This document shows positions 2,201 through 55,170 of a stretch of 64,000 bases of DNA, piece after piece (position 1 is the first letter of the stretch; each line of letters opens with the position of its first letter). The translations under genes were made by a program, and so were the position numbers. The notes under the pieces are model-generated. The model had not been told where the DNA came from. It searched no databases and saw only the letters and a list, made by a program, of their open reading frames with translations. Origin of the DNA: Candidatus Omnitrophota bacterium (GTDB taxonomy: Bacteria; Omnitrophota; Omnitrophia; Omnitrophales; JACROU01); NCBI GenBank assembly GCA_029261035.1, contig JAJDCD010000023.1, positions 62,001 through 126,000 of the forward strand, written 5' to 3'.

Positions 2201-5200
2201 ATGAGGTTTTTTTTAGTATTTCAGCAACAATTGAGAGTCCTAACCTATTTCCTTATTCTTACCTTCGGACTCGACTCTATTTCCCTGGCCCATGCTCAAT
2301 CTGTTACTGCATCCGTGAACGTTGCACCGAGCATTGGGTTGGGGGATTATTCTTCTTTTCCAGATAATCTTGGAAATATCATTCAAAAAAACGAAATATC
2401 TAAAAATGCCTTTAATCTGATTCACTTACAAGACGCCCACGCTAATCCTGAAGCCCAAAAAAAAATTGCGGAACTCATTCGATACTTTTCAGAAGAACAA
2501 GGGTATAACACTGTTTTTGTTGAAGGAGCGTATGGGAGATTGGATAAACGTTATATTGAATTTACAGATGATTTTTCATTAAATCAAAAAATTGCAGAGC
2601 GCCTCACTGCTTTGGGAGAGTTTACAGCGCCGGACGTTTATTTATCAAAAAATAAAAAAAGCACCCTTCAATTTTTAGGAATCGAAGACCCCCAACTTTA
2701 CAGAAAAAATGTAACGCATTTAAAAAAGATATACCAATCTAGAGAAGAAATTGAAAGTTGGATTGAAGCAAAAAAATTAATATTGGATCGAAAAAACTCT
2801 CGTCTAAAAAACAAAAACCTTTTCTATTTATTTAAAACATTTTTAGAACTTTCTGAAAAAACGAACAATTTCAGCCGTCATTTAGTTCAATTAAATACGA
2901 TCTCCAAAAGAGAGTTGGGAAGAGACCTTCAGGATGCGAAAGAACAAATAGAATATCCTAATATTGTTCGATTTTTAAGACTCTTTAAAGAGCAAAAGCT
3001 GGACCGCGAAAAAGCTCGTGTGGAGTGGGAGGAAATAGTAAAAACAATCTCGAAACAAAAGCAGTTCTTAAAGAGAGCACCTTCTTTTAAAGAACTCAAC
3101 GATCTAAATGTTAGGGTTCTTCTAGAAACCTTAGTGGAGGAGCAGGGGGTTGATTTTAAAGGGTTTCCCATTTTTTCAAAGTACGCAAAGGCTCTTATTT
3201 ATCAACAAGAAATGGATGGGGCGGCTTTGTTTGCAGAGCTTAACACGTGGCTCTTATCATTAATCAATCATTTTAGTTTGGAAGCTCAAAGCAAGAATCT
3301 TTTCAAAGAAATTCAGCTTTTTATTTTAATTAAAAAACTTTTGAAGCTCGAGTTAAAAAGAGAAGAGTGGGGTCTGATTAAGGATGAAGAAATCAAAGAT
3401 AAAGAAGTGCAAAACTTAATTGATGAAGCGCTTCTTTTTTATAAAGCTGCTGAGAAAAGAGAACAACCCTTTTTGGAACAAATTCAGAATCAGATCAAAA
3501 ATAAAAAAATAAAAAAAGCAATTTTACTTACGGGAGGATTTCATACTCCTGCGTTATTGAAACATGCAAATGAAGATGGCTGGAATTCTGTGGTTATTGC
3601 TCCTCAGCTTACTTCAGCAGTGGATCAAGATGATTATTTCAAAAATTTTATGGGAAGAGACCCTAAAGACATTGATGTCTCACAAGTAGTAACTCAGCCT
3701 TATTCTATTTCTCCAGAAACGGCAGTTGCGCTTGGTGTCGATCTTGCTAATAGACAGCAATTAGTAAACACTATCACTAGAGAGTTTGTGAAGGCGAGTA
3801 GCCTTGGGGAAAGGAAAGAAATCCTTCCGGGGTTTTTTGAAGAACGCCCTCTTTTTATTCCTAAAGACGGTCGTATTTTACGTTCCAATGAGAGACTTTT
3901 ACTTCAAGCAGGAGACCACTATTTTTATGTTGATGAAAAAAGAGTTGTTCAGGTGGATTCGACTGGGAAAAAAATAAAGCAAATTAAAATTGCAAATAAG
4001 CCTTTAAAACGATGGGAACTCTCTGAAGGAAAGAAGATGGTTTCTCGATCGCATTGGGCGTCTAATGAGAAAGAATTTATATGGTTGAAACACTATTTTC
4101 AATGGCAGAGATTGGCTAAAAAGGTTTATTTGAACGACCCGGTACTTATTGGACAAGGAGTTACATCTAAAGTTTACTCAATGAACGTTGCTATGCCTCA
4201 AGACGGTGTTGTTAGAACCTTAATAGGCACAGAATTTGTGAAGAAAAAAGACAAGACGATAGGCAGAAAAAGGGATTATGGTTTAGTGGGATATGAGGTT
4301 CAAAAAGGAGATTTCCAAGATGAGCCTGTTCCTGTGGGGGCAGTTAGAAAGTTGATTATAAAGACAAGCTCATTTAGCACAAAACGCTCTATTGCTTATC
4401 AAGAACTGATTCGCGATCGATTTGCGAGTACTTTTATTGCAAAGACTGCAGAGTTGCCTTCGAGGCACCCTGTAGCGCATGAGTTAGGATTAGAGCAGTT
4501 TGGCCGCGAACGCATCTTGCTTCAAGAGCCTTTGATTCCTTTAAGCCAAATTTTAAGAGAAGCTCGTGGCTATGAGAGACAATATTGGGCTAATCAATTT
4601 GTTCGGAGAGTGGAGGATTTTTGGAAGAGAGGCTACGTAGACTTAGATGCCAGGACAGATAATTGGGGCGTTAACAGCGAGGGTAAGCTTGTGTTTCATG
4701 ACTTTGATTTCGTTATGAGCTTATCGGAGATGGATAAGGGAATTAAGGGTAAAAGAGAAGACAAGTTAACCGTGTTGAGTCGTAAAATTCAGTTTTTTGC
4801 TAATTTTATTATTAATAATGTGTCATTTTTATATTCTTTAGATCCTGAGTTGGCTAAGCACTTTTATGAGCGTGTTGTTCATATTTCTTTTGAGTTAGAA
4901 AATAAGCAGAAGCTTTATTTGTTTAATGATATTTTGTCTAACGCGGCCGGGACATCTAAGCAATTAAAAAACTGGGAACAGCATTGGAAACGTATTGAGG
5001 TATTTGCTAAGCAGCTGATTCAAGCACATGAAGAACAAGCTTCTAAAGAAAAGCGAAAAGAAATAGTGAAAGATGTTTTCAATTTTTTAAGAGCTTCAGT
5101 GAAGAAAAGGCAAGCATTGATGACTCAGGTTTTACGTTTAGTAGCTCCGGCTTCACAAAGCGAACTTAAAGGAGATCAAATTAGAAGGCAAAAAGGGCGC

Positions 5201-7285
5201 ATCATTAAAAAATGGGCAGAGAAATATTCAGAGCCCTTCGCTTCGAGAGATCATGATTTTGAAAAATTTATAGAGCTAACAACAAAGTTAGTTACAGAAG
5301 GCTTTAGTGGCTTTGTGGATGGGGATCGAGCAGCAATTAGAGACATTATTGACAGTCGTCCTGTGCAATATGAAGGTGTTAGAGAGGTTGTTGTTGGTGA
5401 GATTGTGAGAATAATGAATGGCATCAACTCTTCTACATTAAATGCATTTTCCAGAAAACAAATAAATAATTTTTTCAGTTTTTTGGTTGCTAGAGATTTT
5501 TTCAAAAGACATTTTACTGCAGGAGAATCATTCGATGGCGTTCAAGAAATATATATAGGTTCTAAAGCGCCTCATTTTCAATTTCAGATAGCATCCAACC
5601 AATTGCAACCCTACCACTTTGTCGTTTTGCGTGTCCCTTTTGGAGATAGAGGAAAACATCGAGTGGTGATTTTTGACATGAGCGTTTTGAATGGCGAAAA
5701 AAGCCAAACTCAATTTAGAGGTATTTCTGAACAGGCTTATTCTAGCTTGTTATGGCAACCCTTCCGAGTAGATGGACGCGTTGTGGAAATGAGTTTGAAT
5801 ATAGATTCGTCTCAACAGCAGACGATGGAATTGCCGGAGGATGAAATTGGAGGAACTCGGCTACCTTATTTCTCTCAGACCATGATTGGAAGACTCGTTG
5901 ATTGGATGGGGGATATACAGGCTTTTGAAGCTCAGTTTGCAGACACTCAAGTTGTTCCACATGCTCCTCGAGAGGTTCCTGTTTTTACAAAACCAAGGCA
6001 TTCCAGATATAGACCCAGACATCATAGAATGGGGTCTCGGTCTATTCGAGCTAGAAAGAGAAGAAATATACAATTAGATCGGAATGATATAGAAACTAAT
6101 GTTAGACCAGGAAACTCTGCGAACTCGAGAACGTATGTTGATGCCACTCAAGCACCTAAAACGCGAGCAAAGTCAGAGGTTGTGAAAAAAAGACGTCGTT
6201 TAGGGTTGGGAAGACGGCCAGTAGAATTGCCGCCGTTGTCACCCAGAACTTCTTTTTCACCACCGATTCCAACGTCTGTGCCTAATCCGTTAAAACGATT
6301 TAAACCTATGTCGTTACCGCAAGGAGGTCTAACGTCATTTAATCGCCCTCCAGCTAGACAAAACCCAACTCCTCAGGGAGAAGGGCCGAACGTTGCGGAT
6401 CTTAGGAATCAGCATAAACGTATGTTTGGAAAAAGGCTTTCTATTTGGGATCATAGGATGCCTCCTCAGCAAGAGAAAAGACGCGGATTGAGGGGAAATA
6501 GTTTAGGCTCTATTGTTTCTGTGGCTAATCTTGTTGCAGATAAAATTGTTGCTCCTCAAGACTTAGAAAATGAAGTCATTGTATCAGCTGTTTTGAGACA
6601 GGAAGTATCTTTGGAACAACTCTTTAAACTTAGAGAGCTCTTTGATCAGGTGGGAGGAGATGGTTTTTATAAGAAATTGTTTGGCGCCAACTCCAACTTA
6701 AGTGTTGTTCTGATGCAATCTTCTCAAGTGACGGATGCGTTGGCCGCGGGGATAGATTGGGCTTTGGTGAATCAACCGAATTTAATTCTTCGAATTATTA
6801 ATGACGGAACGCAAAATGAGCAGATTGAACAATTGAAGCGCAAGGTGAAAGATTTAAATGTAAATCATAAAGCAGAGAGATTTAAAATCGTGATGTCTGA
6901 TTTGAGCGTTGTTGATACAATTAATTATATTCTCCGAGACAAAGGGAATCTCTATAAAGTGGCTCATACTTTAGATTCCGGTTTGGCAAGAATAGATGTA
7001 ACCAAGCGAACTGTTGTTTTGGCTAAGGAGCAAACCTTAGAAGATATTGATAAAGGGCTTTCCTCTAAAGTTATATTCATTCCTTCTGAAGTTGAAGGCT
7101 CAGCTCTTTATCAATTTGGAATTTCTACGGCTTTAGCAGCAAATGAGGGACGATTAACAGCAGACCTAAAAGAACATCTACGAATCTCCAAATCTGGACA
7201 TTTTGTTTTCCAGGATTTTTCTCGAATCCTTCATGAGCTGATGACAGCACACCAGGCTTTAAAAGCTATTCTACAAGCAGCCTAG
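2201..7285 (+). CDS. Large secreted modular protein with Tiki/ChaN-like domain and kinase-like fold
   Basis: This 1694-residue protein is a member of a family also found at 37816-50670 and 51025-55170. Residues 1-33 look like a Sec signal peptide. Residues 60-480 resemble the Tiki/ChaN/EreA superfamily: QDAHAN at 77-82, VFVEG at 105-109 and TGGFH at 444-448 match its first histidine motif, its acidic motif and its last histidine motif. An ASSLG motif at 532-536 follows. Residues 640-850 carry protein-kinase-like landmarks: GQGVTSKVY (651-659), K721 in KLIIK, D816-x4-N821, and DFD at 834-836 instead of DFG. Residues 1260-1430 are basic and proline-rich, probably disordered. A weaker SLG motif (1433-1436) precedes the C-terminal domain, which ends QAA. 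GAGAGG before ATG supports the start. Function unknown; the kinase reading is inference. Confidence 0.9.
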   Translation: MRFFLVFQQQLRVLTYFLILTFGLDSISLAHAQSVTASVNVAPSIGLGDYSSFPDNLGNIIQKNEISKNAFNLIHLQDAHANPEAQKKIAELIRYFSEEQGYNTVFVEGAYGRLDKRYIEFTDDFSLNQKIAERLTALGEFTAPDVYLSKNKKSTLQFLGIEDPQLYRKNVTHLKKIYQSREEIESWIEAKKLILDRKNSRLKNKNLFYLFKTFLELSEKTNNFSRHLVQLNTISKRELGRDLQDAKEQIEYPNIVRFLRLFKEQKLDREKARVEWEEIVKTISKQKQFLKRAPSFKELNDLNVRVLLETLVEEQGVDFKGFPIFSKYAKALIYQQEMDGAALFAELNTWLLSLINHFSLEAQSKNLFKEIQLFILIKKLLKLELKREEWGLIKDEEIKDKEVQNLIDEALLFYKAAEKREQPFLEQIQNQIKNKKIKKAILLTGGFHTPALLKHANEDGWNSVVIAPQLTSAVDQDDYFKNFMGRDPKDIDVSQVVTQPYSISPETAVALGVDLANRQQLVNTITREFVKASSLGERKEILPGFFEERPLFIPKDGRILRSNERLLLQAGDHYFYVDEKRVVQVDSTGKKIKQIKIANKPLKRWELSEGKKMVSRSHWASNEKEFIWLKHYFQWQRLAKKVYLNDPVLIGQGVTSKVYSMNVAMPQDGVVRTLIGTEFVKKKDKTIGRKRDYGLVGYEVQKGDFQDEPVPVGAVRKLIIKTSSFSTKRSIAYQELIRDRFASTFIAKTAELPSRHPVAHELGLEQFGRERILLQEPLIPLSQILREARGYERQYWANQFVRRVEDFWKRGYVDLDARTDNWGVNSEGKLVFHDFDFVMSLSEMDKGIKGKREDKLTVLSRKIQFFANFIINNVSFLYSLDPELAKHFYERVVHISFELENKQKLYLFNDILSNAAGTSKQLKNWEQHWKRIEVFAKQLIQAHEEQASKEKRKEIVKDVFNFLRASVKKRQALMTQVLRLVAPASQSELKGDQIRRQKGRIIKKWAEKYSEPFASRDHDFEKFIELTTKLVTEGFSGFVDGDRAAIRDIIDSRPVQYEGVREVVVGEIVRIMNGINSSTLNAFSRKQINNFFSFLVARDFFKRHFTAGESFDGVQEIYIGSKAPHFQFQIASNQLQPYHFVVLRVPFGDRGKHRVVIFDMSVLNGEKSQTQFRGISEQAYSSLLWQPFRVDGRVVEMSLNIDSSQQQTMELPEDEIGGTRLPYFSQTMIGRLVDWMGDIQAFEAQFADTQVVPHAPREVPVFTKPRHSRYRPRHHRMGSRSIRARKRRNIQLDRNDIETNVRPGNSANSRTYVDATQAPKTRAKSEVVKKRRRLGLGRRPVELPPLSPRTSFSPPIPTSVPNPLKRFKPMSLPQGGLTSFNRPPARQNPTPQGEGPNVADLRNQHKRMFGKRLSIWDHRMPPQQEKRRGLRGNSLGSIVSVANLVADKIVAPQDLENEVIVSAVLRQEVSLEQLFKLRELFDQVGGDGFYKKLFGANSNLSVVLMQSSQVTDALAAGIDWALVNQPNLILRIINDGTQNEQIEQLKRKVKDLNVNHKAERFKIVMSDLSVVDTINYILRDKGNLYKVAHTLDSGLARIDVTKRTVVLAKEQTLEDIDKGLSSKVIFIPSEVEGSALYQFGISTALAANEGRLTADLKEHLRISKSGHFVFQDFSRILHELMTAHQALKAILQAA

Positions 7286-7375
7286 CCACGCATTTTGCAA
7301 TTCCCTTACCTAGATGGTACAACTTAATTGATGGTATTGAACTAACTTAAGTAGTCAAGGAAGGGAGAATAAGCT

Positions 7376-11376: not shown

Positions 11377-11385
11377 TTACATTCT

Positions 11386-43800: not shown

Positions 43801-46800
43801 TTTTTTTAATCGAACAGAACGAAGTGTTTTAAATTTTTCTAATTCAGGCTTTAACAATTCCATAAATTCTTGCGTCCCTTTAAAGTCTTTCTCCTTATCC
43901 CAAGAGCCTTCTCTCCCTTCAAGGAGGAAAAGTAAAGGTCGTAAGAATTGAAAAGGAAATTGTAGTCCATGAATTTCAGAGTAACGCTGAAGGTTCTTTA
44001 TAATTTTGCTTGTCAACATATCTGAAACCATTTGTTGTTTTCTTTTATACTGAGGTGTTTTCTGCACAAAGTAATCAACAATAAACAGAAGAAAAATTAT
44101 TTTTAAAAATAAACTAGAATAAAATGAAACCCAATCCCAAATCAACGTTAAATAACTACTTCCTAAACCGGATTCACCGCTAGGTTGTTCATTAAAGGAA
44201 GCCACATACGTGGCTGGATCATTCAAGCTAATTGAATGCTGTTCAGATAAATATTTTTCAAATTGTTGTAATAGAGCTACTTCATTAAGATCATTTACAT
44301 TTTTTAACTGCTCTTTATATATTCCAGCTAAAACAGAATTAAACCACTGGCTAATAAGGTTTTCTTGCAAGTGGCTATGCAGCTCATTTGTTGCTGTTGG
44401 CAGATGCCTTCTTAGTTGTGCTTTATAACGCTCTGTAATAATACGAACAGAAGTAAAAACATCCTCTTCGTCATGCTCATCTAATATAGGATGCGTTTGG
44501 GTCAGTTTATAAGTTGCTTCAAGAACAAGCTCCTCCCTGTCTCTTTCTTCATTTTCTCGAAACTCTTCTGGCATTTTCTCCCATTCCCAAAATAGTTTTA
44601 TTTTTTCTTCCCCAAGAAAAAAAGAAGCGTATAGAAAAGCATGCTGCCATTTCATATATTCATCATTATCCATCCATCCTATATAAAGACGGCTTGTGGG
44701 TAAGTTTTGTAAGTTCTTAAAAAAAGAAGAAAAGTCTTCTCTCATCTTTTTTTGAATATCACTTAATACTTCTTGCGAAACACGAAGTGAGTCCCCAAGA
44801 GCATTCGCTTTTACCACTTCCATTCCCTTATCATTCAGTGGAAAACGAGGAAGAACTACTTCTTTGATGCCAGAAGCATTTTTTGTAATCAACAATGCTG
44901 TAGAATCATAACGCAAAGCACGAATGATTATTTCTCTGATCTTCTTCTGTTGCAAAGATCGACGAGCTGTCGAAGTTTTATTAGTCGCCCCATTTTCTCC
45001 AAACAGCCACTCTCCTTCATTCGTTACGTTGAAGCTAATTTCTGTTTCTTCTCCTTCGTCTTCGTATAAAAGGGTATGCGTTTTATTCGGGAGTAGATTT
45101 TTTAAAACTTTATCCACACGCTTCAGGTGCGCTTCCAAAACAGCGGCATAGGCCAAAGATTGCATTCTTCGCTCCCTGTTGACTTCGATCCCAAAAACTG
45201 CGGTAAATTTTTTGTGATTATCTTCGCTGATATAAGGAATACCTTTTCTCGCGAGATATTTGTGATAAAAAATTGGAGAACTGCCCACTGCAATCCAGCG
45301 GACACGCGCTTGCTGATTTCCAGAAAAATATTTTAACCATCCACTTGTTCTTTCGACCCAATCAAGTGCGTATTCCACATATGCATCCATCAGAAAAGTT
45401 CCTTTGCCCGGCGGCCCTCGTTCTGATGTAGCAAGAAGGGCAAGTTCATTCTTCCTATTATCCGAATGTAAGAAACCAAGCAATTGACCAAGCTCATCTG
45501 TCAATAACAAAACCTCGTCATTACTCTCGAAATTTAAAATTTTCTCAATGGTAGTTTCCCACTGAACATTCACAGTTTCCAACGAGGTGCCAAAAGCTTC
45601 ATGGTCTAGCACTGCCAACTGCTGTAGCAATTGCATTTTGGCGGATGATCCTAATTTCAATGAAGAAAGTAAGTGCACTTGCCCCACCCCTTTTCTTTCT
45701 AAAAAAGCGGGCGTGTTCAAAAATACATTTTGAAGTTCCTTATGGATTTGCCACGCCAATTTTTTATCAATTTTTACAGGAGTTATCCCTCTAACCTTTT
45801 CAAACAAAGAATGCTTCTTTCCTAAACTTTCCGCAGAGGATTTTAAAGACGTCTCCTTGCGATGCACTACCATTTTTTTAATCTCCGCATTTTTTTCAGA
45901 TCGTGGCTCTAACTCTTCAGCTATTCTAAGAGCAGCCAAAGCTCTATTAAACTCAGATAAGTTGGCCAAAATAATGGCTTTTAATTGGTATTCTCGAGCG
46001 TCTTCTCTTGTTGCTATTCTTACAATATTTTCCAACTGATCCAAAGCTTTGCGATAAAAAGTCTGACGCTCACTTACGGACTCCGAAATATTTCCCAGAG
46101 CTTGGAATATCTCTACTTTTTTTCGAAGCAACGAAATATATGTTGGCCTTCTACGTAACCAATCCTCCACAACTTGAAGTGCTTTTTCTAGTTTTTGGCG
46201 GGTTTTAAGTTGCACTAACACAGAAAGATAAACTAAATCATTTTGAATTACTTCTGGCTTGAGGCTTCTAGCCTTTAAGATTGCGGACTCTGCTTCTTCT
46301 ATAGCTTCAGGCTCATCGGAGCTCAACAAAATTTGAGCTTTCAACATATGATTACGGTCATCCCACCCTCGATAAAGAATAGCCTCATCAATAGCTTTTA
46401 AAGCAGCTGCCAACTCACCTAAAACCCATAATACTTTTGCCTTTTGACTTAATAGAACAGAGTCTGCTGGAGAAGTCTTTAAAGCACGCTGAATAACTTG
46501 ATAAGCTTTTGCCCATTTCTTGCTTTTTATTAATTCAGAAGCTTTTCTAGAAAAAACGACCCCTTGTACTCTTGCATAATTTCTTAGCATTTGCTCATCT
46601 TGCGGATAGTGATCAACACCTCTTTGAGCAACTTCTAAAGCCTGATAATATTGCCTTTTCCCCATTAAAAAGTCGACTTCCCGATCATATTCTAATGGAG
46701 TCAAACGACGATTGCTCCCCCTTCCTAAACTGGAAGCCTCTGAAGTTGTTGTAGGAAATTCGGAAGAAATAATTTTTAAAGAAAGCGGTTCTATTGATGT

Positions 46801-49800
46801 AGAGCTAACTATTTTTTGAATCCAGTTTTTCATTTCAGGGGTAGAAATTTTTTCTATCCACTTATGCGCTAAATCAAGGAGCAGTTCTTTCTCTTCATCG
46901 CTTAACGTTTCTCGACTTAACACGTCTTCAATTTCACTCATTAATTTAGTATTTAATTCACCAGAGGAAGTCGCTTCGTGCAGTTGCTGAATAACTAAAT
47001 AAGAAAAATAATAGATAAAAGATAATTTTTTTCTATTTTGCTCTTCATGAATTCGAAGCATGTCTTTGTTCTGAAAAGCATGAGAACGCATAAATAAATA
47101 AGTGGGCATAAACATAAATGCTGTTGGGTAAAAAACTGCGAGCTCATCTTCTAAGTCTAAAAGCAAATGGCCAATCTCATTCCCTAGCTCATAAGCATAA
47201 TCATGCTCATCATCTTCGGAAACACTCTTATTATTTCCATATTTGTCATCAAAAGCGTCTAAGTAATGCTCACTATAACTTTCTTCTTTTCTTAGGAGAA
47301 GTTGTATCTGTTCAAGCATCCACATATCTCTCACAGATTCTTCTGTTACAGTTTCAGAAGACAAAACTTTTAAAGTGCCAGAAGAAAAAGAATTTAAATC
47401 TACTTCCACATCCTCTTCATTACTTTTAAATTCAAACGATCGGAGATAGCTATCTATCATAGAAGATGTGGGCAAGTCAGAAGAAAGCACTTTCTGATAT
47501 TTGAGCCAATGAACCAATTCGTGCGCCAACGATGAAAAAGCATCTTTTTTTCCAAATACTCCAACATAATTTCTAAACTGAAACCCCATTAATTTTTTAT
47601 CAAAAGCATACTCTCTTAAATAACTGGTGATATAATAAATGAATAAAAAGATATCGATTATTAATTTAAAGACAAATAAAAAGCTGCCTAAAATAATTAA
47701 AGGAATCCAAAATAGTTGATTTAACCAAAATGAAGAGCTCAATTGCTGATTGTCTAAAATCCCTTTGGCCACTTCCTTAAGATTATCTCTTTGTCCAAAA
47801 AACAAATCCTTAAGCGATTCCATGATGAGATAAACCACAAAATCAACAATAGGCACCGTTTGAAAACGAAATCGAGTTTTTCTCATTTCTTTTTTCAACT
47901 GCTCCATCTGACTCGCGTCTTTTACTAAGAGCTGAGAAAATAAAAAAACAAAATCATGAAGCGCTCTAGGGTTTCCTCCTAAATTGCTTTCTCTCCAAAG
48001 ATAATCATATAAAGTTCGGGGGCTTTCTCCCAAACTCGAAGCTTGTATATCGGTTTTGGGTGTCATCATTGTTGCAAAAACTTCATGAGCAGAGCCTGGG
48101 GGAACCCCCTGTCCTTCTAAAAAACTCGCTGTCTTAACTATCCGCAACCAAGCTGTATCGGAAAGGCTTTTTCCCTCTCGAAAGTATTTTCTTAATAAAG
48201 AAAAATAGTTCTTCGCAACAAAAGGCTCTCCGAAAGGTTGAATCATTTCTTTTCCAAATTCGCGATACAAAATGTGTGATTGAAGTAAAACAGAGTGATA
48301 AATTCCACCGTTTTCAGAGGTCATATGATGGAGTTGACTTAGATATGTTGAATAGATCTTTTCTTTCAAATTTTGAACTTCAAACCTGACCTTCTCTTTT
48401 TCTCTCAAATAAATTGCTGTTTTTGTTCTTGGAAATTTGCTGAGTATTAGTTCCTCCACATATTTATTGAAATTCGAAGCAAGTTGAGTCATTACTAAAG
48501 AAGAAACTACATATGACGCAGATTGGGCTTCGTCCAGCTCAACCGGTTCGAATTGCATTTCTGTATTCAAAAATGCTTTTAACTGTTCAAAGAATTCTCT
48601 CACAGACTCTGATTCGAAAAGAATGGCTTCCACTCTGTGCGAAAACAAAGCGAGTCCGCCGCTCAAATCAATAATTTTTATAAACACCTTTTTTTTCAAC
48701 AGCTCTTTATCAACTAACCCACTCTCTAAAAGTAAAACAAATGTTTTTTCAACAGCTTCTTGGTTAATGTCATAAACAACAACTTCCTCATATTCTTGAA
48801 TTAATTGAGCTAGTCCCTCTAACGAATAGTCATTAGCAGCTCCCAATCCCATCAACACTGCTTTTCTTCCAGAAAATTCTTGGGCTCCCTTTAAAATATT
48901 TTTCTTACTGCGTTTTCTGTGCATCGGGTCACTCGCAGGGGCTCCGCTAAATAAATCAAAACCCTTAAGCCATTTCATAAATCCAGGGCTAATTCCTTTG
49001 ACAGAATCATCCACTGTAATGTTCAAATCCAAACCACCGCCAAGACTAGATGCCTGAGCATCAACTCCTTTTAAATCTGAAAAAAAGCTGTTCACAAATT
49101 GCTCTCTTAATTTAAAATCGACACCCATTTTCAAAGCTTGTTTAGAAGAAAGAGCCCACGGTGTGGGTTTGACTGTATAAAAATCTAAAATGGCTTTTAC
49201 ATACCCCGATTCTCCCTCTATAGTTGAGTTTGGAGAAATGACAACAGACTTCCAAGGTTGCTTTTCTATAAATGAAGTATGAAAACCTCCTGTAATTACA
49301 ATAGCTTTTTGTATTTTTTTTAATTTAATTTGCGTGTGGATTGTTTTTAAAAAAGCATTCTCTCGAGCTTCAGCGAGCTTATAAAACTCAAATGCAGATT
49401 TTTTTATTTCCTGAATAAAATCTGCGTTAAGGATTTCTCCTTTTAAACCTTTTAGAATATTCCATTCTTCTCGGGTTAGTTTTAGGGTTAAAAGTTTTTC
49501 TGATAAAATAAATTTTTTAACTTGATCCAATATTTCTTTGTCTGTCTCCGAACGCACCAACTCTTTTGATAATGCCTTTTTCCAAACGTTAACTTCTGAA
49601 AATAACTCTGTAGAATCCAACTCTTCCTGATATATTTTATTTTTGGCCAATTCGGAGAAATGAGAATGTTTTTCTAACTGAAGATTCTGGTCTTCAACCC
49701 ATTTTTCCAGTAAGAACCGGAGTTCCTCTTCCTTATTTCTTTGGTTTAAAAATAATATTTTATCTAACTCGCTTTCAAGATGAGCCTTCTCTTTTGTGGT

Positions 49801-50670
49801 AGAAAATTTTCTAAGCTTCTTCCACTCTTTTTGAGCAGCTTCTATATTAATTTTGGCTTCATTGTCTTTTAAACGAAGGAGGCGGGCTAAGTTAGGAAAC
49901 AAAGCTTGCTCGTGGACATCTCTTAAATTTCTTTTAAGATGTTTTTGACTTAATTTGTCTAGAAGACTAATTTCATTAATAAATGTCTGAGGTTTGTTCT
50001 TGAGAAGAAGTCGTAAAAATTTAAGGAGATCTTTATTTGCCTTTTGAGTGATATTCTTGTCAATTTGATATCGTTCAGAATTAATCCACTCCTGAGTTTT
50101 TATTTCTTGAATCAAAATAGTTTTTAAATATTGGATGTTTTTGCGATAGCTTTCTGGATTCTCAATTCCTAAGAACTTAACTTTTTTAGAGAGTTTTTTA
50201 TGGTGTTTATTCAGGAATATATCTGATGCCGTAAACAACCCTTTCTCTTCTAGTACCTCTGCTATTTTTTGATTGAGCTTCGGGTCCTGAGTGAACTGTA
50301 AATATTTCGAATCCAATTCTCCAACCGCTCCCTCAACAAAAACATATTGAATATCTTGCTGCTGAACTAAATATTCTATAATTTCTGCATTATTACGTTG
50401 AGCCATAGTGTTGGCGTGTGCATCTTGAAGATTAATAATGAGTGGCGCAGAAGGGTTATAGGCAGAATCTACCCCTTGTATGCTTCGAACTTGCCCTAAA
50501 ACACTTGGAATTTCTATAGGAACAAATGAATTTAGATTTTGGCGAGAAATAGGTGCTACAGAAGATAAAGAACCAGGTGTTCCACTAGCCCAAACAACTG
50601 TTTCTAAAGTAAAGCAACATAATGTTACTACCGCTACCAATTTGACGCATAATGAAGTGCTCAGCCTCAC
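37816..50670 (-). CDS. Giant secreted multidomain protein with SLG-motif-separated modules
   Basis: The 4284-residue protein has a signal peptide (1-29; GTG start with GGGGTGA upstream) and a Tiki/ChaN-like domain (about 60-490; QDAHAN 82-87, FVEG 111-114, GGFH 461-464). Further modules follow: a Rossmann-like region (600-700), membrane segments (985-1018, about 2171-2201), HELVH (1050-1054), TPR-like repeats (1320-1600), a GNAT-like region (1712-1800), FHA (IGR 2928-2930, S2944, H2947, NGT 2968-2970), a macro domain (3155-3310), a histidine phosphatase (RHGQTDRN 3367-3374, GHGTH 3540-3544) and a methyltransferase (LLEIGPGHT 3752-3760). Motifs near 540, 877, 1312, 1613, 1955, 2456, 2850, 3149, 3584, 3669 and 4104 read A-x-S-L-G or close variants at module edges. 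It ends KVAA. Overall role unknown; single-domain calls are from motifs. Confidence 0.92.
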   Translation of the reverse strand: MRLSTSLCVKLVAVVTLCCFTLETVVWASGTPGSLSSVAPISRQNLNSFVPIEIPSVLGQVRSIQGVDSAYNPSAPLIINLQDAHANTMAQRNNAEIIEYLVQQQDIQYVFVEGAVGELDSKYLQFTQDPKLNQKIAEVLEEKGLFTASDIFLNKHHKKLSKKVKFLGIENPESYRKNIQYLKTILIQEIKTQEWINSERYQIDKNITQKANKDLLKFLRLLLKNKPQTFINEISLLDKLSQKHLKRNLRDVHEQALFPNLARLLRLKDNEAKINIEAAQKEWKKLRKFSTTKEKAHLESELDKILFLNQRNKEEELRFLLEKWVEDQNLQLEKHSHFSELAKNKIYQEELDSTELFSEVNVWKKALSKELVRSETDKEILDQVKKFILSEKLLTLKLTREEWNILKGLKGEILNADFIQEIKKSAFEFYKLAEARENAFLKTIHTQIKLKKIQKAIVITGGFHTSFIEKQPWKSVVISPNSTIEGESGYVKAILDFYTVKPTPWALSSKQALKMGVDFKLREQFVNSFFSDLKGVDAQASSLGGGLDLNITVDDSVKGISPGFMKWLKGFDLFSGAPASDPMHRKRSKKNILKGAQEFSGRKAVLMGLGAANDYSLEGLAQLIQEYEEVVVYDINQEAVEKTFVLLLESGLVDKELLKKKVFIKIIDLSGGLALFSHRVEAILFESESVREFFEQLKAFLNTEMQFEPVELDEAQSASYVVSSLVMTQLASNFNKYVEELILSKFPRTKTAIYLREKEKVRFEVQNLKEKIYSTYLSQLHHMTSENGGIYHSVLLQSHILYREFGKEMIQPFGEPFVAKNYFSLLRKYFREGKSLSDTAWLRIVKTASFLEGQGVPPGSAHEVFATMMTPKTDIQASSLGESPRTLYDYLWRESNLGGNPRALHDFVFLFSQLLVKDASQMEQLKKEMRKTRFRFQTVPIVDFVVYLIMESLKDLFFGQRDNLKEVAKGILDNQQLSSSFWLNQLFWIPLIILGSFLFVFKLIIDIFLFIYYITSYLREYAFDKKLMGFQFRNYVGVFGKKDAFSSLAHELVHWLKYQKVLSSDLPTSSMIDSYLRSFEFKSNEEDVEVDLNSFSSGTLKVLSSETVTEESVRDMWMLEQIQLLLRKEESYSEHYLDAFDDKYGNNKSVSEDDEHDYAYELGNEIGHLLLDLEDELAVFYPTAFMFMPTYLFMRSHAFQNKDMLRIHEEQNRKKLSFIYYFSYLVIQQLHEATSSGELNTKLMSEIEDVLSRETLSDEEKELLLDLAHKWIEKISTPEMKNWIQKIVSSTSIEPLSLKIISSEFPTTTSEASSLGRGSNRRLTPLEYDREVDFLMGKRQYYQALEVAQRGVDHYPQDEQMLRNYARVQGVVFSRKASELIKSKKWAKAYQVIQRALKTSPADSVLLSQKAKVLWVLGELAAALKAIDEAILYRGWDDRNHMLKAQILLSSDEPEAIEEAESAILKARSLKPEVIQNDLVYLSVLVQLKTRQKLEKALQVVEDWLRRRPTYISLLRKKVEIFQALGNISESVSERQTFYRKALDQLENIVRIATREDAREYQLKAIILANLSEFNRALAALRIAEELEPRSEKNAEIKKMVVHRKETSLKSSAESLGKKHSLFEKVRGITPVKIDKKLAWQIHKELQNVFLNTPAFLERKGVGQVHLLSSLKLGSSAKMQLLQQLAVLDHEAFGTSLETVNVQWETTIEKILNFESNDEVLLLTDELGQLLGFLHSDNRKNELALLATSERGPPGKGTFLMDAYVEYALDWVERTSGWLKYFSGNQQARVRWIAVGSSPIFYHKYLARKGIPYISEDNHKKFTAVFGIEVNRERRMQSLAYAAVLEAHLKRVDKVLKNLLPNKTHTLLYEDEGEETEISFNVTNEGEWLFGENGATNKTSTARRSLQQKKIREIIIRALRYDSTALLITKNASGIKEVVLPRFPLNDKGMEVVKANALGDSLRVSQEVLSDIQKKMREDFSSFFKNLQNLPTSRLYIGWMDNDEYMKWQHAFLYASFFLGEEKIKLFWEWEKMPEEFRENEERDREELVLEATYKLTQTHPILDEHDEEDVFTSVRIITERYKAQLRRHLPTATNELHSHLQENLISQWFNSVLAGIYKEQLKNVNDLNEVALLQQFEKYLSEQHSISLNDPATYVASFNEQPSGESGLGSSYLTLIWDWVSFYSSLFLKIIFLLFIVDYFVQKTPQYKRKQQMVSDMLTSKIIKNLQRYSEIHGLQFPFQFLRPLLFLLEGREGSWDKEKDFKGTQEFMELLKPELEKFKTLRSVRLKKENPGLFLRSLVEAIKNSSMLSKLKQTIRSIIKYEDILSEHRELFVRYLDLLQAQNRSGYRDLANSYWVTYPYNEAEEFDFEEGLIKLKKSILDNNHIISFIEEADVEGFLRAQLGNWKIKVPNIDDLEYYQQQVLTMGKVVATMEQEHRDWFQSKVSKLSVDDSSASSLGLSTKQEMLKEVMAEVLQIWRSFPENVLLIEQVLALQEFEGKLIHPTSFSRILFENILLEFKSIITGMQTHNLGDDDFPWLEIMDILTPFIKQLDLFLKKSEQLKSQNEIEDFDFSSLLQVDDFVRRISEKMKLITQIIRTIYGEIQEELGWEQVGEKMMDDEKTRFFLLKHVFEEDDKGSKQRKRIVTPKAITVSVDPSGEKATLANLDTDFKEDVFQIDPFFETHRFDPTSVRVNAFNQVTIRTRPTEREIKGRTYVIELGPNRGEFIIRLKIDVDDKGIYILELVKKIKQRFLKGSNRQQQEEYVVFTTQLKSRETYFQNKLKSYKIVSIQSLLKQGKISESQASTIKGPLLKLVFDNQIQYRDQSTFLRHSVKLNPSTDKEGDGSQASSLGKQQLRAASEKSLKPMERKQFLIEEVDRVYLGLIDSKTPYFTFKHYEGRGWFVSFKIPGQQSFKAVMEPTEKINIGRRAGIGLTVSDASVSKEHLWIRLDHSQKFVEIGNYHPTNGTHLILTKKYVDLLEGASELFTLAFHPDLQRQKREINLFHILTQSGDILYWTKIFSHYPLVFARTLEEANRLLSDAGSNIYFSPKSMPVQEESENHLNRLAKALALKLGALSEVRQTDLEVYFEKGVGNKTLHPDHPIMRIQEAIDEVFSHMNGRLKNLLKDKNNKAFLDKRTLHYIKNKGASLGKIELVRGDITKIQVDAIVNAAKPSLLGGGGVDGAIHKAAGPELLEECRGLGGCNNGEAKITKGYNLPVKHVIHTPGPDLRTLPKNPRRTLRNSYLNSLRLAEAHGLESIAFPAISTGVYRYSLNYGTKIAVDTAHEFLKTAKSLKKVVFVTFAQKDYETYQLYLMKKGLFPQKQHWKSIPEMNDSLKVQGMTGRLTFAKKEPVVTLRVPVWGVRHGQTDRNVAYHENLPFLGRPIKEFQGNVDEPDNQLNEKGQLQAKLAAEALYAQLEELVLDGKQVVVMTSELGRSKETADAFIQHFQERTGTNLEVVEEPLLNEMSFGTADQKSVANFDSQELELEYMYRYAANARIQFPRGESFLKVLDRAKKLMEKINDTYQDNEKVVVLFGHGTHLSAVRVVLGDRNLLDESGQIDWRTNMLDNGSGFHFNRIDAQSLGSQAELLFAEKLAREGRSLESVKKIVRLADWVVAKRDLPWLSEVISIKNAYAGLPKVLPGSISLNTDNVFSRLVEEASSVKAASLGVSFPEMSQKLDRNEPGDVKEVFKYLKENLDFEKASKAAPSAMSVLTGVESFKYKSGFFLSEREVEKIFNSVSVQPGDRLLEIGPGHTVFSLISAMMGAQVTVVEPSTVYAPQLNALYQQVKDKIQESGGSFTLIQKSVFEVSSQILVDESYDHVWAVDLMSTENYLSMVRRDFLIGHTERGLSTIDEMKDLSNLIARVKRPFGGSVFISILQTTTPKPPINNWVIQALKQRGVEIEASHLVPTALYSGDKMAEIKKIMPMMQSSSDHGVVYRLKEQHGTISEMLFRGIEKRLPEDVRPYLSLEDVQTWLNASVFQNAVGQYVMKLFSKGLDPSSVSSSAIVINEETSELAIENLYKLKTKAIYSEVISLIPEFAKNLFSEGLVKQWLKQDKVQLDKTLFDFIQSNIKQVGPGQVSEFAISLNSVKGVIVKAQSLGQKELEPIAWILSEAMLNEVAQEELVSIFKGRRGSKIIVLQQETEELKGLKQVLALEGVEVIAKQHFLVSEVKEELKEISNGISFQSLTDRQNLPKIKKSYERVRWNSELVEQSGIRTSDLLELMTSIALVQDERTRKQLYHSLGLKNQNGLWQMTQEFIQNLYVYHQAQQALKVAA

Positions 50671-50754
50671 TCAGTTCACCCCGAAAAAGAGATTTTAAAT
50701 CTTTAATAAAGGTTTAAATTTAACCTCTAAACATCCGGTTGTCAAGCGTCTATG

Positions 50755-50969: not shown

Positions 50970-51024
50970 TCCTCCAAAGACAGATCAGGGCTACACCCTT
51001 CAACACTTCCTAAGGTGACAAGCA

Positions 51025-54000
51025 CTAAGCGGCTTGAGCTATTTGGTTTCTAATCAGCAGCCTGTCTAAGAGCTGAGCTGTAAATTGCTCTAATGAAAAG
51101 GCAAAGACTTCGAAAGTGCCTCTTTGAGTGAGCTTGATATGAGGCGGAATTTCTATGCTTCCTTGTAGAATTTGTAGCGCAGTTGTTGGAAGCCCCAAAA
51201 CAAACCCTTCTTTTTCATCTTGAGTCCTTCCATTCACAATAAAACGAGTCAAATCCTTAGAGCCCAAATACAGAACCTCCTCGTCGTCAGTTTTATTTAC
51301 AAAAACAGCACTTCGTTTTTGCCCTCTGTATCCTCGTCCAAAACGCTCATCCGATTTCTTTTTAGCCTCTTGAAGAGAATAGCCACTCAAAACTTGGAAT
51401 TGCTTTTTCTTCCCCCACTCTCTAAATTCATTAAGCAACTGCTGCGGATCAAAATCTCTTATCTCTTTATTAATCTGTTCCGCATCTTTAGGTGTGGAAA
51501 TATAAATACGAAGCAATGGAAATCGTTTAAATAAGTCATGCAATTCCTCTACCACAGAACTCTGCTTTAATGTTTCCCAAGAAAATACTAATGAAATAGG
51601 TTCAGAAACAAGATCACTATTAATTATAATATTTTTTTCTCTTAAAAATTGTTGGTATAAAGTTAACAGCTCTTCTTGCTTCGCTCCTAAACTAGAGCCC
51701 TTGCTTATACTCGAACTGCTGTCATCAGCATTATCAAAAAACTTTCCTGCATTTCTAACCTCTACGATCTCTTCTACAAGACTAACCAATTCCTGTGTAA
51801 CACCTGTTGGCTTAACCAGAGCACCTTGAATCACACCCTGCTTTAAAAGAGGCCCATTATAAGGGTATCCGGAATTAAAGATAATAATAGCATTCTGATT
51901 TAAGGCTCTCAACTTTCGAGCCAATGTCTCTCCATCTGTATCTCCAAGAGTTAAATCCAGTAAAATAAGATCGTAAATGCTCAAATCCAGTTTCAACGCT
52001 TCCGAGCCACTCAGAACAGCGTCCACAGCATCATCTTTAATACCAAACAGCTGGGGTAGCAACGATTCCATGATTTTAACAATCATTCGGTTATCATCAA
52101 TAAATAGAATATTATTAATTTTATTGGGGGCTGTTTGCTCTTCATCTTCTAAAACTGGTGGGGCCTTATCCTCTATAGGAGCTTTAACTTTGCTTTTAAT
52201 AGGGTTATAAACTGGTAAAACAATTCGAAACTCGGTACCTTTTCCTTCTTGGCTAGAAACTTGTATGGTGCCGTCATGCGACTCAACAATTTTCTTTACA
52301 TTAGATAGCCCAAACCCAGTCCCTTTTTGTCCTTTCGTAGAAAAGAAGACATCAAACACCTTTCCCAACTGTTCTTCGGGAATCCCTTTACCTTCATCAA
52401 TAACTGAAATTTGGACATGATTATCTGGAGCATTTTGTACAGTAATTGTAATAACCCCAGAGTCTTCCCTCATGGCATCTATTGAATTAGAAATTAAATT
52501 ATTAAATACTTGCATAAGATAAATTTTATTTCCAAGAATCAAAGCGTCTTCATTGTAAACTCGATTTATTTTGATTCTACTGTGAAAACTATCAGCAACG
52601 CTATAAGCCATATCAATGGCTTCATGAATATAAAACACTTCAAACTTTTTCATTTGATTTGAGTCGGGCTTAGAAAAATTAACTATTTGCTCCGCAATCT
52701 TATAAACTTTACTTAATTCTTCCAAAAGAACATCCAACTCTTCTTTTGTTTTATCTAAACTTGAAGCTTCTAAATGATCGATTACCATTTCTAAAAAATG
52801 TAGAGTGGATTGAAGGGGACTTTTTATATCATGCAGAATCCCTGCTCCCATAAGTCCAATAGAAGCCAAACGCTCCGACTGTTCTAATTTGATTTTGTAT
52901 TTTTGTAAAGCATCCGACGCTTCTTTAAATACAGTTACATCCAACAAAACCCCATTCCAGACAACTTCACCCTCTGTAGCTTGATAAGGCATTGCTTTAG
53001 CTCTAAACCAGCGCTGTTGCCCTCCTGTTGTCATCATTCTAAAATCTTTATCCCAAATATTTAGAGTTTCTGCAGACTCTATTAAAGATGCTTTTACTCT
53101 ATCTCTGTCTTCTGAAAAAATATGTTCAATAAAAAAATCTGGATCACTTACTATTTGATTAGGCTCGATTCCAAGTAAACTATAAACACCTTCGCTAATA
53201 TAAGGGATTTTCCACTTATTTTCTGCCGTTAATTTAAATTGATATATACTTCCAGGTATGTTTGCAGCAATGTCCTCTATAATTCTATTTAGCTCTTTTA
53301 AACTTTTTATTGCTTGTTGCTCTTCTTCTGAATTTTTTTGTGTTAGATAAAATCGAAACATCATAGAAAATAACAGCATGATGGAAAGGCTGACAGAAGG
53401 AAGGAAAAGCCTCTCTAATAAAGACAATGTTTTCCCTGTTGTCATCCTAATTAGCGTAGGATCTAAAATTGAAGTTGAAAAACTAATGAAAAGAATTATA
53501 GAGGGAACAAGAATCACAGAAACAATATCCCAATTCCGTTTAAAAGTTGAAGTTGCATTTTTGATAATAGTTCTTTTATCTTGATTTCCTAAACTTGCAG
53601 CTTTTTGAATTGGCAGGTCATTTTTTTGTATAAATTCGAAATTAAATTGAATATGATCCTTATCCGATGAATCTAATGCAATAGCAATGCTTTCCCCATT
53701 TTTAAATTGGATAATAGTTTTCCCATCTACCTTTGATACAAAGAAAAGCTTAGCTTCCTGCTCTGCATGAGGTGCAACTGAGAATAGAAGCGCCTTTACC
53801 AGGCTCTGAAATAGCGGATCATTTACATTAGATGTTCTGGCTAATGCAGCAGCTCCCAGAGAAGCATGCGCTTGCAACAAAGACTCTAAAGGAAGCTTCT
53901 CCCCATGAAATAAACTCCAGTAAGGAATAGTTCTTCGAAAATCTCGAATTTTAGGACTTATTTGAGAAAAACTGTACCCTTGGTTTATGCAATAAGTCTT

Positions 54001-55170
54001 AAGGCTTTCCGCATGGAACCCTCCCATAACAACAAAAGCTTGCTTTAGTTTTTTTTGCTTTAATCCTTTTTCTAAATTTAAAAAAAGAAAAGACTCCCTT
54101 TGTTTTGCGCATTTGTAAAAATCCTCGGATAATTTTATTGAGTATTTCCATTCATTAAAAAAACTTAAATCTAAATTGTGTTTAGAAGAAATCGAGTATA
54201 AAAATCGCTCTAGCTTCTTAAAGAATTCATCCACATTTATCTTCTGATATTCCCTATATTCTGTTGAAGAAAGCTTAAGGTAGAAGATCTTTTCAAATAA
54301 GTCTATTTGTCGCTCCATTTGCATCAATTTTTTTGAGATTGGATTTTCTATCTTAGAAAAAAGCTGCTCTTCTAATACATTTACTTCTTGAAAAATTTGG
54401 TAATTAATTTGAGGGGGTATTTTTGCATCTTTGCTAAAAGAGAAAGAAAGCAGCTCTTGAATTTGTCGATAAGGTTTTATTGCAACCTGAACCTCAGTTG
54501 CCCATTCAAATAAAAATTTTAAATAAGAGATCAAATAGGTCGAATTGTTTTGTAATTTCCTTTTCTCCTTTTTCCATTTAAGAGCAAAGGGATTAACATA
54601 AATAGAATTCAAATCTTCCAACGCTTGCCTCACTTGCGTTAACCCCTTCTCACCTGCTGTTTTGTAAGGGAGTAAAGCCTTGTAGGCTTGAACATTTTCT
54701 TCATAAGCTTGTTGAGATTCGATTCCAAACAGAGTTTTTCTTTGAGGATCTAAAACACTGTATAACTCAGCCCCAGACAATCGTCCTTGTTGCAGTAAAT
54801 AGTGAGCAACTACTTTTTTTGCATTTTTATCCGGAAAATTCCAAAATGATTTCCATTGAATGGGCCCTTCTGTTCCTTCTAAAAATATTTCTCCCCTAGG
54901 AAATTGTATCTGCGCTTTTTTTAAAAGTTGATGAATTTCCAACTGAGCATCTAGACTATCATGAGCATCTTCTATCAGATAAATATGGGGCGCATTATTG
55001 TTTTTGGAAAGATGCTGAAAGGAAAGGTGGTTTGAAAAATTTATTTCTGAACCAGCTTCAGATACGAAAGGCTCTCGTGCTTGCAAGAGATCTATTTGAG
55101 TTATGAAAATAATAAAAACAAGACATACACATGTAAAGAATCGGAAAGAATTATGTCTCTTCCATAGCAT
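51025..55170 (-). CDS. Secreted/membrane Tiki/ChaN-like domain fused to hybrid histidine kinase
   Basis: This 1381-residue member of the large-protein family starts with a signal peptide and a Tiki/ChaN-like domain (IEDAH 66-70, GGFH 383-386). HASLG (435-439) and AASLG (524-528) follow, then two membrane helices (548-568, 586-608). The cytoplasmic part is a PAS domain (about 630-745), a histidine kinase with H780 in ILHDIKSP, N-box NLISNSIDAM (891-900), DEGKGIP (925-931) and GTGFGLSN (950-957), and a receiver with D1025, D1026, phosphoacceptor D1072 and K1120. GSSLG (1158-1162) leads to the family C-terminal domain ending AQAA. CAGGGAGAG precedes the ATG. It lies upstream of the giant gene in the same direction and may sense a periplasmic event through the Tiki/ChaN-like domain. 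Confidence 0.93.
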   Translation of the reverse strand: MLWKRHNSFRFFTCVCLVFIIFITQIDLLQAREPFVSEAGSEINFSNHLSFQHLSKNNNAPHIYLIEDAHDSLDAQLEIHQLLKKAQIQFPRGEIFLEGTEGPIQWKSFWNFPDKNAKKVVAHYLLQQGRLSGAELYSVLDPQRKTLFGIESQQAYEENVQAYKALLPYKTAGEKGLTQVRQALEDLNSIYVNPFALKWKKEKRKLQNNSTYLISYLKFLFEWATEVQVAIKPYRQIQELLSFSFSKDAKIPPQINYQIFQEVNVLEEQLFSKIENPISKKLMQMERQIDLFEKIFYLKLSSTEYREYQKINVDEFFKKLERFLYSISSKHNLDLSFFNEWKYSIKLSEDFYKCAKQRESFLFLNLEKGLKQKKLKQAFVVMGGFHAESLKTYCINQGYSFSQISPKIRDFRRTIPYWSLFHGEKLPLESLLQAHASLGAAALARTSNVNDPLFQSLVKALLFSVAPHAEQEAKLFFVSKVDGKTIIQFKNGESIAIALDSSDKDHIQFNFEFIQKNDLPIQKAASLGNQDKRTIIKNATSTFKRNWDIVSVILVPSIILFISFSTSILDPTLIRMTTGKTLSLLERLFLPSVSLSIMLLFSMMFRFYLTQKNSEEEQQAIKSLKELNRIIEDIAANIPGSIYQFKLTAENKWKIPYISEGVYSLLGIEPNQIVSDPDFFIEHIFSEDRDRVKASLIESAETLNIWDKDFRMMTTGGQQRWFRAKAMPYQATEGEVVWNGVLLDVTVFKEASDALQKYKIKLEQSERLASIGLMGAGILHDIKSPLQSTLHFLEMVIDHLEASSLDKTKEELDVLLEELSKVYKIAEQIVNFSKPDSNQMKKFEVFYIHEAIDMAYSVADSFHSRIKINRVYNEDALILGNKIYLMQVFNNLISNSIDAMREDSGVITITVQNAPDNHVQISVIDEGKGIPEEQLGKVFDVFFSTKGQKGTGFGLSNVKKIVESHDGTIQVSSQEGKGTEFRIVLPVYNPIKSKVKAPIEDKAPPVLEDEEQTAPNKINNILFIDDNRMIVKIMESLLPQLFGIKDDAVDAVLSGSEALKLDLSIYDLILLDLTLGDTDGETLARKLRALNQNAIIIFNSGYPYNGPLLKQGVIQGALVKPTGVTQELVSLVEEIVEVRNAGKFFDNADDSSSSISKGSSLGAKQEELLTLYQQFLREKNIIINSDLVSEPISLVFSWETLKQSSVVEELHDLFKRFPLLRIYISTPKDAEQINKEIRDFDPQQLLNEFREWGKKKQFQVLSGYSLQEAKKKSDERFGRGYRGQKRSAVFVNKTDDEEVLYLGSKDLTRFIVNGRTQDEKEGFVLGLPTTALQILQGSIEIPPHIKLTQRGTFEVFAFSLEQFTAQLLDRLLIRNQIAQAA

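Follow-up and report, generated by a model that had tools for sequence, protein, structure and literature searches.

The three large proteins encoded in the window (the whole stretch of Omnitrophota DNA analysed here, 64,000 nucleotides) belong to a genome-wide family whose members have common ends, differ in the modules between them, and carry at the module edges a single short peptide, which does not change within a genome but has been exchanged for another in sister families. The chances are about even that these are exported polyproteins whose linker is read by a single factor acting in trans, an endoprotease being the likeliest candidate. Under this reading, each gene would give rise to a Sec-exported chain, usually composed of a TIKI/EreA-type N-terminal domain (N-domain), one to many modules delimited by the genome's peptide, and an alpha/beta C-terminal domain with an Ala-Ala end. 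The endoprotease would cleave the chain at the linkers during or after export to give separate modules, and the released proteins would have their effect outside the cell, with a partner or prey cell as a plausible target.

The window proteins and their family

The three large open reading frames described in the first-pass annotation are present at the sizes and places claimed for them (P0001, P0002 and P0003; Table 1). As had been noticed, each encodes a hydrophobic export signal, an N-domain and [AG]xSLG motifs, and its C-terminal region finishes with AA; D-A-H ... F[VL]EG ... GGFH occurs in the alignable N-domain of all three. The motif count needs some correction. Of the 10-11 copies attributed to the giant P0002, 11 contain SLG, but only 10 fit [AG]xSLG, the eleventh being YHSLG at 4248; P0001 has only two motifs, and P0003 has two canonical copies plus HASLG.

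Table 1. Features of the three proteins, numbered from the first nucleotide of the window
Protein	Feature	Residues	Position	Strand	Basis
P0001	Whole protein, 1694 aa: signal peptide, N-domain, two motifs, kinase-like and basic stretches, C-terminal domain ending QAA		2201..7285	+	
P0001	N-domain, TIKI/EreA/ChaN fold (predicted)	34-506	2300..3718	+	AF2, structural matches, alignment
P0001	Linker motif ASSLG	532-536	3794..3808	+	
P0001	Linker motif GNSLG	1432-1436	6494..6508	+	
P0001	C-terminal domain		6509..7282	+	Alignments
P0002	Whole protein, 4284 aa, 10 linker motifs		37816..50670	-	
P0002	N-domain (D83, H85, E113, Y430, R436, H464)	32-522	49105..50577	-	
P0002	Linker motif ASSLG	540-544	49039..49053	-	
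P0002	Linker motif ASSLG	877-881	48028..48042	-	
P0002	Linker motif ASSLG, precedes TPR module	1312-1316	46723..46737	-	
P0002	TPR module; motifs 16 aa before, 12 aa after	1333-1600	45871..46674	-	
P0002	Linker motif AESLG	1613-1617	45820..45834	-	
P0002	Linker motif ASSLG	2456-2460	43291..43305	-	
P0002	Linker motif ASSLG	2850-2854	42109..42123	-	
P0002	Linker motif GASLG, directly before macro domain	3149-3153	41212..41226	-	
P0002	Macro-domain module	3154-3320	40711..41211	-	
P0002	Histidine-phosphatase module	3366-3548	40027..40575	-	
P0002	Linker motif AQSLG	3584-3588	39907..39921	-	
P0002	Linker motif AASLG	3669-3673	39652..39666	-	
P0002	Methyltransferase-like stretch	3724-3791	39298..39501	-	Weak RrnaAD match
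P0002	Linker motif AQSLG	4104-4108	38347..38361	-	
P0002	C-terminal domain, predicted alpha/beta, ends KVAA	4109-4284	37819..38346	-	AF2 pLDDT 81
P0003	Whole protein, 1381 aa: N-domain, TM pair, PAS-HisKA-HATPase-receiver, C-terminal domain		51025..55170	-	
P0003	N-domain	33-444	53839..55074	-	
P0003	Linker motif AASLG	524-528	53587..53601	-	
P0003	Hybrid histidine kinase module	657-1102	51865..53202	-	
P0003	Linker motif GSSLG	1158-1162	51685..51699	-	
P0003	C-terminal domain	1163-1381	51028..51684	-	

The proposed plan of fixed ends and a swappable middle holds genome-wide. The 2.70 Mb source genome (labelled G000) contains 45 genes with the same N-domain, as well as further relatives without it; 44 proteins of the N-domain family comprise 134,490 aa, or 14.9% of the genome, a share that rises to ~18% when all relatives are counted. 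Lengths in this genome go up to 16,198 aa (M37), M19 has 8,077 aa, and relatives elsewhere reach 24,618 aa. Sec export is predicted from N-terminal hydrophobicity, seen in 44 of 46 family proteins. At the other end, the AF2 model of the P0002 C-terminal domain has a pLDDT of 81, with residues 1-9 below 50, and the motif lies in a disordered stretch just before the domain. No family name could be given to this domain, as its matches were generically Rossmann-like (SDRs, SPINDLY; Z up to 7.3, with ties).

Giant open reading frames of Omnitrophota were described by Seymour et al. 2023 (PMC10066038), and gigantic mosaic proteins of the phylum were noted in the lipocone paper (PMC12419801). The proteins described in the available parts of these papers come from the same phylum as the present family and likewise have transmembrane helices and a mosaic of domains, histidine kinases and methylases among them; in the former they are said to show poor conservation, to have few annotated domains and to be difficult to assess. 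The family surpasses the >20 kb that defines such giant frames, whereas the window members, at 4-13 kb, fall below this line. Relative to those parts of the two papers, the TIKI-like N-domain, the genome-constant linker with its lineage switch, the AA end and the genome share are new: the words tiki, trab and polyprotein do not occur in the available text of PMC12419801, nor polyprotein in that of PMC10066038, and no description of a polyprotein or linker motif was found in the Omnitrophota literature searched.

The N-terminal domain

An AF2 model, a structural search and the conservation of a His/Glu site all support the suggestion that the N-domain is Tiki/ChaN-like, even though Pfam PF04187 (ChaN) gives no match. 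In the VIA search with the P0001 model (pLDDT 88), the top seven matches were all EreC, HopBA1, ChaN or BcR135, at Z 8.4-9.6 (EreC 9.6, HopBA1 9.0, ChaN 8.7), and the next, unrelated row scored 7.5; the fold match is nonetheless remote, since the best Foldseek E is only 0.025. In the alignment, H, E, R, Y and GGxH vary in none of the 44 N-domains. With the catalytic residues of the TIKI-type superfamily taken from PMC6254334, the 2His/2Glu pattern (E-x-H, E 28 residues on, second H) appears in P0002 as D83-A-H85, E113 and H464, the H-to-E spacing of 28 residues being equal to that of BcR135 and RRSP. PF04187 has no match in this genome, and the N-domains of P0001-P0003 match no Pfam family; the label "ChaN family proper" was dropped in favour of a distant relationship by fold and residues. 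The N-domain is thus predicted to be a TIKI/EreA/ChaN-fold hydrolase, which resembles members of the TIKI/EreA/ChaN/TraB superfamily (RRSP, EreC, HopBA1, ChaN) in predicted fold and active-site pattern but differs from them in that the first Glu is replaced by Asp in most members, in a long helical insertion between E and the second H, and in its place at the head of giant mosaic proteins.

Such a domain could itself cut the motif in cis, as a particular variant of the polyprotein reading. Site-specific endopeptidases are known among TIKI-fold enzymes (RRSP, PMC6254334), no N-domain departs from the catalytic His/Glu residues, and the first motif is mostly found 54-200 aa downstream of GGFH. 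Even so, cutting in cis is quite improbable: giants without an N-domain carry the same AxSLG motif, stand-alone N-domains of ~530 aa occur in families without the motif, and dozens of N-domains would need a parallel change of specificity to follow the genome-wide switch described below. One N-domain may, however, act in trans on the linkers.

The linker motif

AxSLG occurs 150 times in 44 family proteins of the source genome, compared with 5.3 in shuffles, and 167 times in 50 proteins, compared with 4.26 expected (~39-fold enrichment). Chance or composition was rejected as its source, the permuted GLS, LSG, SGL, TLG and SIG being at about background. Other frames of the genome have the motif ~19-fold more rarely, so the frequency check suggested by the first-pass annotation comes out in favour of the motif; 93 unrelated neighbouring frames (32.8 kaa) contain two. 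The claimed position at module edges is likewise upheld, since none of 86 motifs lies inside a recognised Pfam domain (10.4 expected, P<0.0002). When the motif was masked, 150 edges of homologous units fell within 20 aa of a motif (48.7 in shuffles), and 19 motifs lay inside such units (65.9 expected). It is, as a polyprotein linker should be, a recurrent site at unit edges and outside folds. The spacing, said to be mostly 300-500 aa in the giant protein, has a family-wide median near 400 and extends from 18 to 8,501 aa.

Among 197 motif copies, 184 of the 15-mers are distinct, and the Gly and Ala codons are near background, so selection acts on the peptide rather than on DNA. This bears on the proposal that the modules were assembled through a recombination or insertion site, of which the motif would be the translated scar. 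Units between motifs are indeed exchanged among the proteins, and the motif's S and L are encoded with a bias towards AGT TTR; yet with codons randomised to this extent no fixed DNA site survives, and a DNA element was rejected as the main cause. Such a cassette is very improbable as an explanation of why the peptide is retained, though it may account for past module movement.

It is also improbable that the motif is a plain flexible linker, a spacer copied with its modules by descent and without a reader. The motif flanks are hydrophilic, and the motif's serine codons favour one class, as would be expected of copies from common ancestors (AGY 73% in G000 and 78% in genome G028, TCN in nearly all copies in the RSExR lineages described below). 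However, spacers drift, whereas here four residues do not vary even though synonymous sites are randomised, and in at least four N-domain clades sister families differ in their entire genomic complement of linkers.

Modules between the motifs

Whole genes have been captured as modules, and motif-delimited units have been exchanged among family proteins. The modules include signalling proteins, kinases and central-metabolic enzymes, and most are unrecognisable. A complete PEP carboxykinase (PEPCK), with its P-loop PSASGKT retained, fills the stretch from the motif at 2165 to that at 2845 of M41, and the ICL module retains KKCGH. The P0002 macro domain starts at the residue right after its motif; no second macro match was found in this genome, and in related genomes the domain is a stand-alone gene. 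Several modules are of cytoplasmic type (a histidine kinase with receiver, PEPCK and a sigma-70 region 4 HTH). Proteins of this type make little sense outside the cell unless delivered into another, which counts against the exported-polyprotein reading.

A lineage switch of the linker

In sister families, the place of AxSLG is taken by RSE[LVM]R. The source genome has 167 AxSLG and no RSExR (3.0 expected), whereas G020 has 105 RSExR (2.0 expected) and one AxSLG (2.8 expected), and G009 has 66 RSExR compared with 0.5 expected. In the tree set, every protein from SLG genomes has the motif except M13, which consists of the N-domain only; RSExR is found in 23/23 genes of G020 and 9/10 of G009, the tenth being a 638-aa frame with neither peptide. 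A homologous unit of ~1,000 aa is followed by SLG in M38 of the source genome and has RSExR on both flanks in G072. Both the AxSLG and the RSExR group are represented in each of four disjoint N-domain clades, all supported at 0.98 or more. The argument rests on these four clades rather than on the parsimony count of 11 changes, because some outgroup tips in that count owe their label to chance hits. Because the linker switched genome-wide although old N-domain paralogues interleave between the groups, the comparison of sequences offers strong evolutionary evidence for a putative reader acting in trans and weighs against a linker that is purely structural.

The motif is not universal in the phylum. 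In G184, from another Omnitrophota class, the family is expanded but no linker peptide is detectable, and other distant families lack it too, so processing by a linker peptide would not be universal to this platform. A candidate linker in G080, KYPT, proved to be an internal repeat of one protein.

The main rival to the polyprotein reading is that the peptide is a docking tag, i.e., a repeated binding site for one protein, be it a surface scaffold, a chaperone or a partner in secretion, by which uncut giants would be arranged. Repeated binding sites would leave the same trace as cut sites, and docking accounts for the constancy within a genome, the concerted switch and the placement in exposed linkers as well as cleavage does; moreover, surface coats and adhesins have been proposed for Omnitrophota giant proteins in the available part of PMC10066038. 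We nevertheless regard docking as unlikely. There is hardly any gap between the motif and the start of captured enzymes, and PEPCK exactly occupies the space between two motifs; such abutment would be expected of cut sites, because the motif would replace gene ends. In addition, some proteins have a single motif in >1,000 aa, and docking has no known binding partner. For the polyprotein reading, a fuller version falls slightly short of an even chance: a single protease would read a shared cut site in scores of chains, its specificity would have changed between sister families, and cytoplasmic enzymes would have been captured for delivery outside the cell.

Comparison with known systems

In viral polyproteins, many folded units are made as one chain, and repeated short cut sites co-evolve with one protease. 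The present family shares the many folded units and the repeated short sites, but the system is cellular and bacterial and spread over dozens of separate genes, and here both cleavage and protease are inferred. MARTX toxins are also giant exported chains with fixed ends and swappable effector modules, which in MARTX are released by proteolysis, and one MARTX effector itself has the TIKI fold (PMC6254334). Unlike MARTX, the family comprises tens of genes per genome, with one linker peptide at unit edges and metabolic enzymes among its modules; in the proteins scanned, no Pfam match to RTX repeats or the cysteine-protease domain was found, and most modules match nothing.

Implications

Giant proteins of Omnitrophota were already known, but their logic was not. 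The motif provides a parsing rule, by which giants can be split at AxSLG or RSE[LVM]R into domain-sized units for cloning, folding and annotation. The lineage switch, in turn, predicts a trans-acting reader that should be findable by comparing SLG with RSExR genomes. If the peptide is cut, this would constitute a new layer of bacterial protein production, with about a sixth of the genome encoding exported polyproteins, which would likely represent the molecular arsenal of presumed predators or symbionts.

Architecture of the family

The three large reading frames described in the first-pass annotation were recovered with the same places and lengths (see table), as were the ends said to be common to them: their N-terminal domains (N-domains) align over ~500 columns, retaining D-A-H, F[VL]EG and GGFH, and all three proteins end in AA. 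The motif count given for the giant P0002 also stands. With two hydrophobic helices ahead of it and an exported N-domain, the P0003 kinase would sit outside the cytoplasm unless the chain were cut beforehand.

Family proteins and features of the window (motif, [AG]xSLG)
Feature	Position	Strand	Length	Observation
P0001	2201-7285	+	1694 aa	two motifs
P0001, residues 772-853	4514-4759	+		weak AceK kinase domain match; D-x-R-x-D-N and DFD-like motifs occur here, and the stretch may be a divergent protein kinase
P0002	37816-50670	-	4284 aa	ten motifs
P0003	51025-55170	-	1381 aa	two motifs
P0003, hydrophobic segment	53335-53538	-		two hydrophobic helices between an AASLG motif and the histidine kinase

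A profile built from these three N-domains matches 56 stretches, in 45 genes, of the 2.70 Mb genome (G000). Forty-four family proteins comprise 134,490 aa, whose coding takes up 14.9% of the genome; fifty family entries total 142,572 aa, and the largest protein has 16,198 aa. Relatives without a detectable N-domain carry the same motif and, in most cases, the Ala-Ala end; when these longer or further relatives are included, the sum reaches ~168,000 aa, which corresponds to 18-19% of the genome. A hydrophobic N-terminal stretch, read as a Sec signal, is found in 44 of 46 family proteins, and the final residue is Ala in all 44 aligned C-termini.

The N-domain model (AF2, from 44 paralogues; pLDDT 88) is structurally closest to EreC (Z 9.6), HopBA1 (9.0), C. 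jejuni ChaN (8.7) and BcR135 (8.4-8.7); matches by Foldseek alone are weak (best E 0.025). HopBA1, BcR135, ChaN and the Ere enzymes have been placed with the TIKI superfamily, whose catalytic set comprises E-x-H, a Glu 28 residues on and a second His (PMC6254334). The P0002 counterparts are D83-A-H85, E113 and H464, with an identical 28-residue step, and 44/44 paralogues conserve H, E, Y, R, GG and H without variation. Because of this agreement in fold and catalytic residues, the N-domain is predicted to be, and likely is, an active hydrolase.

The motif marks unit edges

AxSLG occurs 150 times in 44 family proteins vs 5.3 in shuffles (167 vs 4.26 in 50 proteins), with only 2 copies in 32.8 kaa of adjacent non-family ORFs. 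The position at module edges that the first-pass annotation gave the motif is borne out: of 86 motifs, 10.4 would be expected inside Pfam domains and none lies there (P<0.0002). When different proteins were compared with N-domain and motif letters masked, 150 of 508 edges of homologous segments lay within 20 aa of a motif vs 48.7 (maximum 87) in shuffles, and just 19 motifs fell inside such segments (65.9 expected). In the C-terminal domain model, the motif lies within the disordered first nine residues.

Units are common to proteins whose N-domains are not closely related, e.g., M19 and M24 of G000 and G028_L218. A sub-group (L034, i.e., M44; L041, i.e., M15 and M46) has tandem modules of ~350-450 aa, each with an EWLR.EAQSLGA-like end, suggesting that the unit was duplicated together with its linker.

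The DNA pattern of the AGY-form motif occurs 187 times in the whole genome vs 33 for a reversed control. Selection acts on the peptide, because 184 different 15-mers are found among 197 motif copies and the Ala and Gly codons are close to background. The serine codons are largely of one class (AGY 73% vs 32%), a sign that the copies descend from a single ancestral one.

Modules and gene capture

Most modules have no Pfam match. Among those recognised are protein kinases (M02, M33), PPDK-like (M20), sigma-70 region 4 and LuxR-type HTHs (M19), ARMT1 and an AprA-type methyltransferase (M00), a nucleotide-sugar dehydrogenase (M38), an amino-acid kinase (M22), NUDIX (M09), and isocitrate lyase, malate synthase, PEPCK and Glu/Leu/Phe/Val dehydrogenase (M41). 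In M41, the space separating the motifs at 2165 and 2845 holds a PEPCK that can be aligned almost end to end and retains the P-loop; a canonical stand-alone PEPCK is encoded elsewhere in the genome (541 vs 303 bits). The M41 isocitrate lyase, split by insertions, retains KKCGH, and no second full-length copy was detected in the genome.

The macro module of P0002 begins directly after GASLG and is the sole macro match in G000, while in other Omnitrophota its relatives (≤61% identity) stand alone as proteins of ~170-250 aa. Thus, it appears to be an ordinary gene that was absorbed, with the motif at the former start codon.

A lineage-specific linker and its putative reader

The N-domain is present in 173/384 genomes of the phylum, and the fused form is abundant in the window's order. 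Some families have one stand-alone copy of ~530 aa; those of f13, f21 and f22 (L085, L086, L087, L088), predicted to be secreted and with charged tails in several, are likely the ancestral form. Beyond Omnitrophota, records of Elusimicrobia and Candidatus Auribacter contain the domain (L163, L164, L110).

[AG]xSLG is used by G000 and G028 (both f1) and G097 (f8), and RSE[LVMA]R by G020, G009, G072 (f2), G048 (f3) and G062 (f7). RSExR counts are 105 vs 2.0 in G020 and 66 vs 0.5 in G009, and this peptide too lies at unit edges (e.g., RSELR-LPGE-KVAVIGGAGFV); none was found in the G000 family (3.0 expected). Nearly all RSExR copies use TCN serine codons, and because the codon classes differ, the two peptides may be of separate origin. 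No linker peptide was found in the distant expanded families (L171-L177 of G184, L078, L079, L083); their C-termini are often S-V, S-L or S-A, not A-A, a further lineage-specific rule for the C-terminus. Open frames of 44,856 aa (G106 contig C3, L240, with a histidine-phosphatase module resembling that of P0002) and 24,618 aa (G028 contig C1) were also noted in relatives.

A tree built from 117 N-domains contains four non-overlapping clades (support at least 0.98) in each of which genes of both linker groups are mixed. The linker follows the genome, not the clade; the two exceptions are an N-domain-only frame (M13) and a 638-aa frame with neither linker. In G000 (M38), SLG follows a homologous unit of ~1,000 aa that RSExR flanks in G072. 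The switch is genome-wide, across old paralogues, and the simplest account would be one trans-acting reader per genome. Reading in cis by the N-domain is unlikely, because it would require parallel change dozens of times and giants without an N-domain carry the motif.

Beyond what is directly observed, namely the architecture, motif-marked edges, unit exchange, gene capture and concerted switch, it is about an even chance that the reader is an endoprotease, which would cut the chains and free the modules. The main alternative, a rather improbable one, is that the reader binds the linker peptide. Giant mosaic proteins of Omnitrophota are already known (PMC10066038, PMC12419801); no description of the linker code, of the linker switch or of the TIKI-like head that the proteins share was found in the papers searched, which took in neither preprints nor most subscription journals. 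The predicted signal sequences would place the destination outside the cell, and, given the predatory or symbiotic habit presumed for the phylum (PMC10066038), one guess is that the exported products act on a partner cell.
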